Source of the DNA: Thermodesulfovibrionales bacterium
GTDB taxonomy: Bacteria > Nitrospirota > Thermodesulfovibrionia > Thermodesulfovibrionales > JdFR-86
NCBI GenBank assembly: GCA_030682405.1
Contig: JAUXOF010000065.1
Location: 1 to 32,824, forward strand
DNA length: 32,824 bases
Direction: 5' to 3'
Positions 30,606 to 32,824 of this stretch are shown here, piece by piece. The notes under the pieces were generated by a model. It saw nothing but the letters and a program-made list of their open reading frames with translations, was not told the origin of the DNA and made no database searches. Every line of letters begins with the position of its first letter. Positions within the stretch are counted from its first letter, which is position 1. Made by a program: the position numbers and the translations under genes.

Positions 30606-30941
30606 CTAAACGTACAAAAGACGGTTTTTAATGCTGTCTTTCGTATAACCTGAAAGCACGCGCGATACTCTTCTGGCAAGCTCGTATACATTCCTTCTTG
30701 TAGCTATAATAACGCCGGCATTGTCTCCGCCCTGCGCCGTGAGTTCCGAATAAAGTTGTTCATAATGCACACGGTTATGGGTCAGGAAAACACGCCCCTT
30801 GCTTAAAGCATACATTATTTGCTTAGTATCGGAAACGCCGAGCATCTTTTCATCGAGTGCGGTCAAGACCTTAAAGCCCTTTGCCTCAAGGAGCGGCTTT
30901 ATCAGGACATCCACGTCTTCATCGCAATATATAGAAATCAC
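30606..30941 (-). CDS. DUF5615-type PIN-like protein (putative toxin)
   Basis: The 111-residue protein has the DUF5615 layout: an acidic start YCDEDVDVLI, a central LGVSDTKQIMYALSKGRVFLTHN, and a C-terminal helix RRVSRVLSGYTKDSIKNRL. The family is a PIN-like nuclease fold usually paired with DUF433 antitoxins. The motif usually read as THDxDF is here THNRVHYEQL, so an acidic residue is lost; activity may differ or be absent. Its ATG overlaps the stop of the DUF433 gene (ATGA). Confidence 0.8.
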   Translation of the reverse strand: MISIYCDEDVDVLIKPLLEAKGFKVLTALDEKMLGVSDTKQIMYALSKGRVFLTHNRVHYEQLYSELTAQGGDNAGVIIATRRNVYELARRVSRVLSGYTKDSIKNRLLYV

Positions 30942-31213
30942 TTTAAGGAGGGATGAACCTTGCTTGCGGGTATCTTGTTCTTTTCTATGTATCCGTTGAT
31001 TTCCTTCTGATAGTCGCTGTAATAGCTCAGGGCCTCGAATACCTGAGCGAGCGTGAGGTGAGGCATGTGGATGACTATCTCCTCGGGCGATAGGCCGAGA
31101 CGCCAGTTTTCCACAACCGCCCTTACAGGAGTCCGCGTCCCTTTGATTACAGGTTCTCCGCCGAGTATCTTCTTGTCTTTAACAACATATTTATATTCAG
31201 CTACCGTTCCCAT
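30938..31213 (-). CDS. DUF433 protein (putative antitoxin)
   Basis: The 91-residue protein carries the DUF433 domain: GGEPVIKGTRTPVRAVVENWRLGLSPEEIVIHMPHLTLAQVFEALSYY, a winged-helix-like fold commonly found upstream of DUF5615 or VapC-like toxins. It probably binds DNA and neutralises the partner (inference from the family). It heads the DUF433-DUF5615-mfd gene row on the minus strand. Confidence 0.87.
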   Translation of the reverse strand: MGTVAEYKYVVKDKKILGGEPVIKGTRTPVRAVVENWRLGLSPEEIVIHMPHLTLAQVFEALSYYSDYQKEINGYIEKNKIPASKVHPSLK

Positions 31214-31364: not shown

Positions 31365-31396
31365 GTCTATGACCCGTGGGTCACGACCCATAGGGC
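31365..31396. repeat. 32-bp intergenic repeat module, copy 1
   Basis: Identical over 32 bases to 32727-32758. The core is an imperfect palindrome (TATG..CCGTG / CACG..CATA). It sits in the loop of a larger hairpin formed by ATTCCCGC and GCGGGAAT. A further CCAG / CTGG inverted repeat follows (31402-31424). Confidence 0.85.
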
Positions 31397-31433
31397 GGGA
31401 ATCCAGAAAGGAGACAAATGACTGGATTCCGCA

Positions 31434-31553: not shown

Positions 31554-31642
31554 TCAAGCCAATTTGAGACTTTTTCAGGGGTCTCAATTTAGAAATATCC
31601 TATTTGGAGAACTTAAAGAGGAGATAGTCGAGCTTTTAAAAG

Positions 31643-31726
31643 TGCCGGTGGTGGGAGTCGAACCCACACGGAGTTGCCCCCACCGGATTTTGAGTCCGGC
31701 GCGTCTGCCAATTCCACCACACCGGC
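31643..31726 (-). tRNA. tRNA-Leu (CAA)
   Basis: The 84-nt class II tRNA has acceptor GCCGGTG/CACCGGC with discriminator A, anticodon stem CCGGA/TCCGG with loop CTCAAAA giving CAA, a variable arm (TGGGGGCAACTCCGT region) and T-arm GTGGGTTCGACTCCCAC. CCA is not encoded. The 32 bases of its 5' part (31695-31726) are repeated exactly at 32224-32255. No clear promoter is seen just upstream. Confidence 0.95.
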
Positions 31727-31742
31727 TGAAACTGCTTTAAGG

Positions 31743-31940
31743 CTACCCTGCCACCGCGTACTCGACCGAGCGGGGGTTCTCCATACGGCGCGAGGCGTCA
31801 AGTATTTCCAGCCCGACAATGTTCCCGCTTTTGTCGAAATCGAGGATTATGCCCGGTTTCTCTTCGTCGCTTTCCTCGATGGGCAAGTCGGTAAAAATGA
31901 TGCGAAGGACATCCACATCGGGGTCATAAGTTATTTTCAT
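31743..31940 (-). CDS. DUF2283 family protein
   Basis: The 65-residue protein begins MKITYDPDVDVLRIIF and ends with GLEILDASRRM, the DUF2283 signature of a small beta-rich protein. It is commonly coded next to a DUF4258 protein in pairs thought to be toxin-antitoxin-like (the role is inferred). ATG 31940 overlaps the DUF4258 stop (ATGA) and follows GGAGG; an upstream in-frame Met adds four residues but is less likely. It stops 16 bases from the tRNA-Leu 5' end. Confidence 0.88.
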   Translation of the reverse strand: MKITYDPDVDVLRIIFTDLPIEESDEEKPGIILDFDKSGNIVGLEILDASRRMENPRSVEYAVAG

Positions 31941-32197
31941 TGCTGCCTCCAATACTTGTTAATTTTACTTGTCTTATAAGCAGTCACCACTACTTTTGGG
32001 TTAACGGCTTCATTCACTATCACCCGTAATAGATATATTTTACCCTTACCGAAATCAATTTGCGACTGGTACGCCTTTTTATCGCCATACTCCTCGACAA
32101 TCTGCCGAGGGTCATTCAGGACGGATTCTACAAATTTTCTCGAAATCCGTCTCCGCTTCATTTCCTCTTCGGCATGAAGGGAAAATTTAAAATTCAC
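31937..32197 (-). CDS. DUF4258 family protein (RelE-like, putative toxin)
   Basis: The 86-residue basic protein fits DUF4258: FSLHAEEEMKRRRISRKFVESVLNDPRQIVEEYGDKKAYQSQI, then strands VVVTAYKTSKINKYW. The fold is compact and RelE/ParE-like, with the conserved early His. It begins at GTG 32197, preceded by GAGGAG. The pair with DUF2283 is bracketed by a 32-bp duplication of the tRNA-Leu 5' part. Confidence 0.83.
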   Translation of the reverse strand: MNFKFSLHAEEEMKRRRISRKFVESVLNDPRQIVEEYGDKKAYQSQIDFGKGKIYLLRVIVNEAVNPKVVVTAYKTSKINKYWRQQ

Positions 32198-32223
32198 TTC
32201 TTCTCCTCGCTAAAATATAGAAA

Positions 32224-32255
32224 TCCGGCGCGTCTGCCAATTCCACCACACCGGC
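32224..32255 (-). repeat. 32-bp copy of the tRNA-Leu 5' part (possible attachment site)
   Basis: Bases 32224-32255 are identical to 31695-31726, running from the tRNA 5' end through the 5' side of the anticodon stem. The copies are direct repeats 529 bp apart, enclosing only the DUF4258-DUF2283 pair. No integrase gene lies between them. Confidence 0.92.
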
Positions 32256-32493: not shown

Positions 32494-32565
32494 AGCAGCC
32501 TCCGATACGAAAACGGCAATATTTTAAAATATCACAGAAAAACAATTATGTCCAAGTTATAACGG

Positions 32566-32824
32566 TGACATAACGGTGGGGTCTGCGACATAAAAGTGGG
32601 TTTTGTAAATTTACCGGATATTGCTTTATTTGTCATACCCCGACTTGATCGGGGTATCCAGAGGCATAACTATGTAAAAAACAAGAAAATTACTGGATTC
32701 TCTCCTGCGAGCCAGTGGCCGGTCAAGTCTATGACCCGTGGGTCACGACCCATAGGGCCGGAGAATGACGAGAACTCTTGTCAATACTGCGATATTTTGC
32801 CTGCCCCACTTTTATGTCGCAGAC
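32566..32824. mobile_element. small non-autonomous element with terminal inverted repeats (reaches window end)
   Basis: GTCTGCGACATAAAAGTGGG (32581-32600) is an exact inverted copy of 32805-32824, the last 20 bases of the window. On the left, GACATAACGGTGGG and GACATAAAAGTGGG are 20 bp apart, the arrangement of spaced transposase-binding repeats at IS21-like ends. Between the ends there is no gene, only another palindromic repeat. It is probably a MITE-like derivative or nested ends; the right boundary may extend outside. Confidence 0.6.
32727..32758. repeat. 32-bp intergenic repeat module, copy 2
   Basis: Identical to 31365-31396, again placed in the loop of a larger hairpin (ATTCTC ... GGAGAAT), here inside the small mobile element. 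Confidence 0.85.

Follow-up and report, generated by a model that had tools for sequence, protein, structure and literature searches.

The tRNA-Leu(CAA) locus and its inserted gene pair

The window, as the whole analysed stretch of 32,824 nucleotides from a Thermodesulfovibrionales bacterium is called here, contains a single tRNA according to both Rfam and ARAGORN. The first 32 nucleotides of this tRNA-Leu(CAA) gene are duplicated upstream, in the direction of its transcription, as an exact direct repeat (32/32) with a start-to-start spacing of 529 bp. Between the two copies lie a DUF4258 and a DUF2283 gene, and no tyrosine integrase gene. The features of the locus are as follows.

31642..31726, minus strand: tRNA-Leu(CAA), the functional copy at the junction and the sole one found in the genome
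31695..31726, minus strand: repeat copy 1, tRNA nt 1-32, attR-like, ending at the 5' edge of the anticodon loop
31727..32223, minus strand: insert of 497 bp between the repeat copies, absent from 13 empty sites in relatives
31743..31952, minus strand: DUF2283 gene (PF10049), putative antitoxin (Pfam E 1.5e-20; alignment A2)
31743-31940, minus strand: ATG-initiated form of the DUF2283 gene (alignment A2)
31937..32197, minus strand: DUF4258 gene (PF14076), predicted RelE/ParE-type toxin (Pfam E 4.5e-12; model; fold comparison)
32224..32255, minus strand: repeat copy 2, displaced 5' fragment of tRNA-Leu(CAA), attL-like, without the 7-nt overlap CTCAAAA
32299..32493, minus strand: DUF6485 gene, ancestral upstream neighbour of the tRNA (Pfam E 9.2e-09), adjoining the tRNA in relatives

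By our own estimate, the chance of a 32-nt exact match within 2.8 kb is of the order of 1e-13, far from random. The 3' boundary of the repeat falls at the exact 5' edge of the 7-nt anticodon loop, and the repeat encloses just the two-gene unit, as the original prediction had described. A third copy of the 32-bp end, which that prediction had proposed to look for, was not found in the 2.03-Mb assembly (99.8% complete) with up to three mismatches allowed; the next-best two tRNA-Leu matches in the genome are the TAA and TAG isoacceptors. RNA folds of the displaced fragment are no more stable than those of shuffled sequences.

In 13 relatives, including the same-family members G002, G003 and G005, DUF6485 is followed by a complete tRNA-Leu(CAA) without the pair. 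DUF6485 and the tRNA share a strand, with a gap of about 20-150 nt between them, and mnmE is found further upstream in several relatives where it was sought. As these sites are empty and the DUF6485 gene of the window lies directly outside the upstream repeat copy, the pair was inserted between DUF6485 and the tRNA. The expectation that empty sites would be found in relatives, and that the insertion had parted the tRNA from its original upstream neighbour, is thereby borne out.

Within the insert, DUF4258 is the first gene and overlaps DUF2283 by 16 nt; the displaced fragment and the start of DUF4258 are 26 nt apart, and the gap between the stop codon of DUF2283 and nt 1 of the tRNA is 16 nt. 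The predicted model of the DUF4258 protein is of high confidence (pLDDT 93.6), and almost all of its best structural matches are RelE, ParE, HigB, YoeB or BrnT toxins (top Z 7.5, rmsd 3.1, 82 aligned). With weak Foldseek E-values (best 0.063) and a Z below 8, the support for this fold is moderate, and the protein is predicted to adopt the RelE/ParE-type (BECR) toxin fold. DUF4258 is also listed among the BECR-fold toxin families of the RelE/ParE superfamily in a 2025 paper, with its activity given as unknown (PMC11980606). The table in that paper gives the order antitoxin/toxin, whereas in the window the toxin-like gene comes first and its partner is DUF2283. From the gene order, DUF2283 would be the antitoxin of a putative toxin-antitoxin pair. 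No mention of DUF2283 was found in the literature searched, and its model (pLDDT 67.5) is of too low confidence for use; PADLOC gave no match, and a sequence search of the PDB gave no relative.

The pair is a small operon that is kept together elsewhere, co-occurring at 23 loci besides the window in several phyla, some of which represent one genome found twice, and it is present in 7 of 176 genomes of the order. At none of these 23 loci does it lie at a tRNA-Leu: the homologous pairs (L096-L119) are flanked by unrelated genes, with no tRNAs except a tRNA-Gly near L109. The best outside relative covering the whole gene, L096 from a Nitrospirae bacterium, has flanks that match genome G104 of the order. 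The window genome holds no second copy of the pair, and tblastn found none in plasmid or phage records. At two unrelated loci without a tRNA, the pair is bracketed by exact direct repeats, of 18 nt with a period of 548 bp (L098:1391-1956) and of 26 nt with a period of 601 bp (L103:2954-3580), which derive from sequence at the 3' end of the upstream gene. Flanking repeats of at least 18 nt occur at 4 of the 23 pair loci, compared to about 0.4-1.2% of control positions, although these loci are heterogeneous and some are rich in repeats or paralogues. In the window itself, a second toxin-antitoxin-like pair lies on the other side of the tRNA, just downstream, formed by overlapping minus-strand genes for DUF5615 and DUF433 (30606-31213).

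Integrase islands in the 5' half of tRNA-Leu genes

Elsewhere in the order, which belongs to Nitrospirota, tyrosine-integrase islands of 14.6-21.4 kb occupy the 5' half of tRNA-Leu(CAA). The 21.4-kb island of G035 is bounded by DUF6485 and a displaced fragment of nt 1-40 on one side and by a complete tRNA-Leu(CAA) on the other. Besides a tyrosine integrase, its genes encode an HTH protein and a TrwB-like coupling protein, and there is a weak match to MobL. The island of G123 (14.6 kb) carries an integrase of another type, and the same displaced fragment is found on split contigs in G098, G115, G120, G125 and G126. In G175, an integrase and a promoter are followed by nt 1-40 and then by sequence that is not tRNA and is similar to the far arm of G120, a junction that looks like attP. 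A complete analogue of 6.1 kb lies in tRNA-Leu(TAG) of G050, with a fragment of nt 1-39, so that G035 and G050, together with G123 and its other integrase type, represent the complete 5' islands.

All nine displaced or attP fragments start at nt 1 and end at nt 39 or 40, spanning the 7-nt anticodon loop (CTCAAAA; CTTAGGA in TAG) and the anticodon stem on both sides. These ends agree with the scheme reviewed for integrases at tRNA genes, in which the overlap lies in the loop (PMC8371274). The islands rebuild the tRNA from an element-borne 5' half and leave the host fragment of nt 1-39/40 displaced, and the 5' part of tRNA-Leu(CAA) is a known kind of attB. The unit in the window shares its place, polarity and first nucleotide with these islands. 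Its likeness to a duplicated attachment site at the 5' part of the tRNA, which the original prediction had pointed out, is strengthened, since integrase-bearing islands elsewhere in the order use that very part as their attB.

The G035-type integrases group in one clade of 11 members (support 0.976), to which the integrase of G001 is the nearest sister. G001 belongs to the same family as the window genome and has its member of the G035-type integrase group at tRNA-Leu(TAG). The clade integrases (L120-L131) accompany tRNA-Leu with anticodon CAA, TAG or TAA, and once tRNA-Arg(CCT), and they lie upstream of the tRNA and codirectional with it. In most of these elements, a TTGAC-type hexamer and a TAAAAT-like hexamer, 17-18 nt apart, end 6-10 nt before the rebuilt tRNA, suggesting from sequence that the element brings a promoter together with the 5' half. 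Such an arrangement has been described as seldom encountered in bacteria (PMC8371274), and a 5' fragment was recorded in 159 of 3919 islands by Islander (PMC4383910). A bacterial integrase clade that enters tRNA-Leu from the 5' side with a replacement promoter is the wider finding of this analysis.

In viral sequences, the G035 integrase has distant relatives only, and the tRNA-Leu site gave one match in viral contigs, which is an ordinary tRNA-Leu(TAG) belonging to a cluster of viral tRNA genes. Related integrases of a second group (L134-L137, L145) flank tRNA-Arg, -Thr and -Gly genes at their 5' side, while the sister groups lie on the usual 3' side, suggesting that the side of entry changed within the integrase family. 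At L127, the integrase reading frame extends past its usual end, apparently into the tRNA-Leu(TAA) region, which is reminiscent of integrases that span attP.

Not all insertions at this site carry an integrase. In G049, 2.65 kb without an integrase lies between DUF6485 and the tRNA, with an element-type promoter kept ahead of the tRNA, suggesting that insertions at the tRNA-Leu(CAA) site can lose their integrase. Displaced fragments were not detectable in G049 or in the other possibly decayed sites (G026, G044, G008, G059, G040 and G009), and no other duplication closer than 2 kb was found at the tRNA-Leu(CAA) site across 230 genomes of the class. In G123 (L060:1704-1763) and G126 (L064:2499-2558), sequence like the G035-type element promoter precedes the displaced fragments while the integrase present is of another type; here, a second island probably landed on an earlier one. 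Displaced 3' parts of tRNA-Leu(CAA) are seen in G040 and G058 (L035:1246-1299 and L036:2093-2121), so that this tRNA seems to take islands from both sides.

The genome of the window encodes five integrases, of which two are XerC and XerD-like and three are distant ones on contig C17; one of the five adjoins a tRNA-Lys/Arg/His cluster. An integrase elsewhere in the genome had been suggested as a possible helper, but none of the five matches the G035 integrase at E <= 1e-40.

Origin of the 497-bp insertion

The arrangement in the window resembles the tDNA islands with a 5' fragment recorded by Islander (PMC4383910), in that a complete tRNA lies at one end and a displaced 5' fragment lies upstream at the other end, in the same orientation and on the correct side, with empty sites in relatives. 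To be listed by Islander, however, an island needs an integrase and a length of 2 kb or more, whereas the unit in the window has 497 bp, no integrase and a fragment that stops at nt 32, short of the anticodon loop (nt 33-39) that forms the crossover overlap. The elements pTN3 and TKV4 of Thermococcus likewise use the 5' half of a tRNA-Leu and part it from its original promoter, but they are archaeal, have an integrase gene overlapping att, share 41 bp including the anticodon, and are carried in full (PMC5495485; PMC8371274). CIMEs (cis-mobilizable elements) are also similar, with att-like repeats at both ends and without genes for integration and transfer. This is the established name for integrase-less island remnants, described as decay products of ICEs or IMEs (PMC5704250). 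In the unit, recombination and transfer genes are absent and the repeats are present as putative att ends, one of which is without the overlap.

With confidence only a little above even, we favour the reading that a 5'-targeting island, with its attB in the 5' half of tRNA-Leu(CAA), left the unit behind as a CIME-like remnant that has no integrase. An element with a copy of the tRNA 5' half would have recombined in the anticodon arm, a placement that is seen directly and that was presumably catalysed by an integrase, displacing the host 5' half toward DUF6485 and rebuilding the tRNA with its own. Deletions may then have removed the integrase, attP arms and element promoter, leaving only the DUF4258-DUF2283 operon at its present distances from the displaced fragment and the tRNA, and trimmed that fragment back to nt 32. 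The tRNA would now be transcribed by read-through from the pair, from DUF6485 or from both, in which case loss of the pair would risk losing the only tRNA-Leu(CAA).

This reading is favoured by the 13 empty sites, three of them in the same family, by the use of the same site and polarity by tyrosine-integrase islands whose nine fragments all start at nt 1, by the integrase-less insertion in G049, and by the same-family integrase of G001 at tRNA-Leu(TAG). The description of CIMEs as decay products is in line with it. It is weakened by the end of the fragment at nt 32 rather than nt 39/40, since the overlap expected from a crossover in the anticodon loop is missing. This end argues against a simple, unaltered integration product and leaves two readings, either a deletion that later started at the loop edge and removed what else there was of the island, or a different mechanism. 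Additionally, searches of the 497-bp insert for residues of attP arms or of the element promoter gave scores not above those of shuffled probes, the pair was not found in the stretches read of islands at this site and is not near tRNA-Leu genes at its other loci, the genome has no helper integrase of the 5'-Leu type, and the reduction to exactly two intact genes is convenient.

Another mechanism is envisaged in integrase-independent insertion, in which template switching or repair copied the pair in and duplicated 32 bp of its target, with the location at a tRNA partly coincidental. The absent overlap poses no problem here, and the repeat-bracketed pairs at L098 and L103, together with the enrichment of flanking repeats at pair loci, make an integrase-independent or cassette-like mode of insertion conceivable. 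Given the heterogeneity of those loci, and a repeat that runs exactly from tRNA nt 1 to the loop edge at a site reused by integrase islands with the same polarity, we regard this explanation as unlikely, though credible. More doubtful is a self-contained mini-element, consisting of a promoterless operon and one 32-bp core site, which would form a 529-bp circle and obtain its integrase in trans from a resident or transient 5'-Leu island. The unit is compact with one core repeat per end, integrases that target the 5' side of tRNA-Leu are in circulation both across the order and within the family of the window genome, and in archaea a related disabled element can be excised by an integrase that uses a 5' tRNA-Leu site (PMC5495485). 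Several results speak against such an element: the overlap is absent at one end, recognisable attP arms and a helper integrase are lacking, the genome contains neither the pair nor the site a second time, no other mini-insertion occurs among the 230 genomes, and plasmid and phage records lack it. Mobilisation in trans, as originally proposed, is left unsupported, as none of the integrases in this genome is related to the 5'-Leu type at E <= 1e-40 and the unit has no recognisable attP arms. It is improbable, in turn, that the operon is a promoterless mobile cassette of ~0.5 kb that uses the site of the 5'-tRNA-Leu islands and their integrase in trans, landing ahead of the only tRNA-Leu(CAA); if true, the pair's transcription and retention would be tied to an essential tRNA.

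An assembly artefact, in which the 32-bp repeat joined two assembly paths, is very improbable. Contigs of relatives do break frequently near this tRNA (G117, G120 and G125 among them), as expected of a variable site, but the outer neighbours in the window are as they should be, with DUF6485 on one side and the complete tRNA on the other. Tandem duplication of the 529-bp segment, or a degenerate second tRNA gene, accounts for the existence of a repeat and little else, and its probability is close to nil. Tandem duplication, which the original prediction had offered as a second explanation, is rejected because only 32 of the 529 bp are repeated, and the degenerate tRNA, which it had named as an outcome that would count against it, is ruled out by a displaced copy without a tRNA body. 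Together with the absence of the unit from the empty sites, these results refute both.

The unit in the window, preferably read as an island remnant, is ordinary in kind and unusual in form. It illustrates how little of an island can persist, and places a toxin-antitoxin-like pair directly ahead of a single-copy tRNA. Remnants of this sort at tRNA genes escape notice, as island finders drop candidates that are shorter than 2 kb or have no integrase.

Transcription of the tRNA and nearby repeats

The original prediction had also noted that no good promoter for the tRNA is now visible. This holds for the 16-nt gap between DUF2283 and the tRNA, in which no sigma-70-like site was found. The concern is moderated by the arrangement in relatives, in which the tRNA follows closely behind DUF6485 on the same strand and was therefore probably transcribed as part of an operon before the insertion. 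For the same reason, read-through from the pair is likely, and the sole tRNA-Leu(CAA) is probably co-transcribed with the pair ahead of it. Two candidate promoters lie further upstream.

32212..32240, minus strand: candidate hybrid promoter, TTGGCA in the displaced tRNA fragment, 17 nt, TATTTT past the junction (consensus match only)
32526..32554, minus strand: candidate promoter upstream of DUF6485, TGGACA-17-TATTTT with a TG extension (consensus match only)

Since six promoter-like matches were found compared to 1.9 in shuffled sequences, single candidates carry little weight.

Beyond these features, a perfect 20-bp inverted repeat (32581-32600 and 32805-32824) brackets 204 bp at the very end of the contig, a segment with partial matches at 28 further places in the genome. 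Furthermore, a 36-bp interspersed repeat with the palindromic core GACCCGTGGGTC is present at 31365-31400 and 32727-32762, with further copies in the genome.
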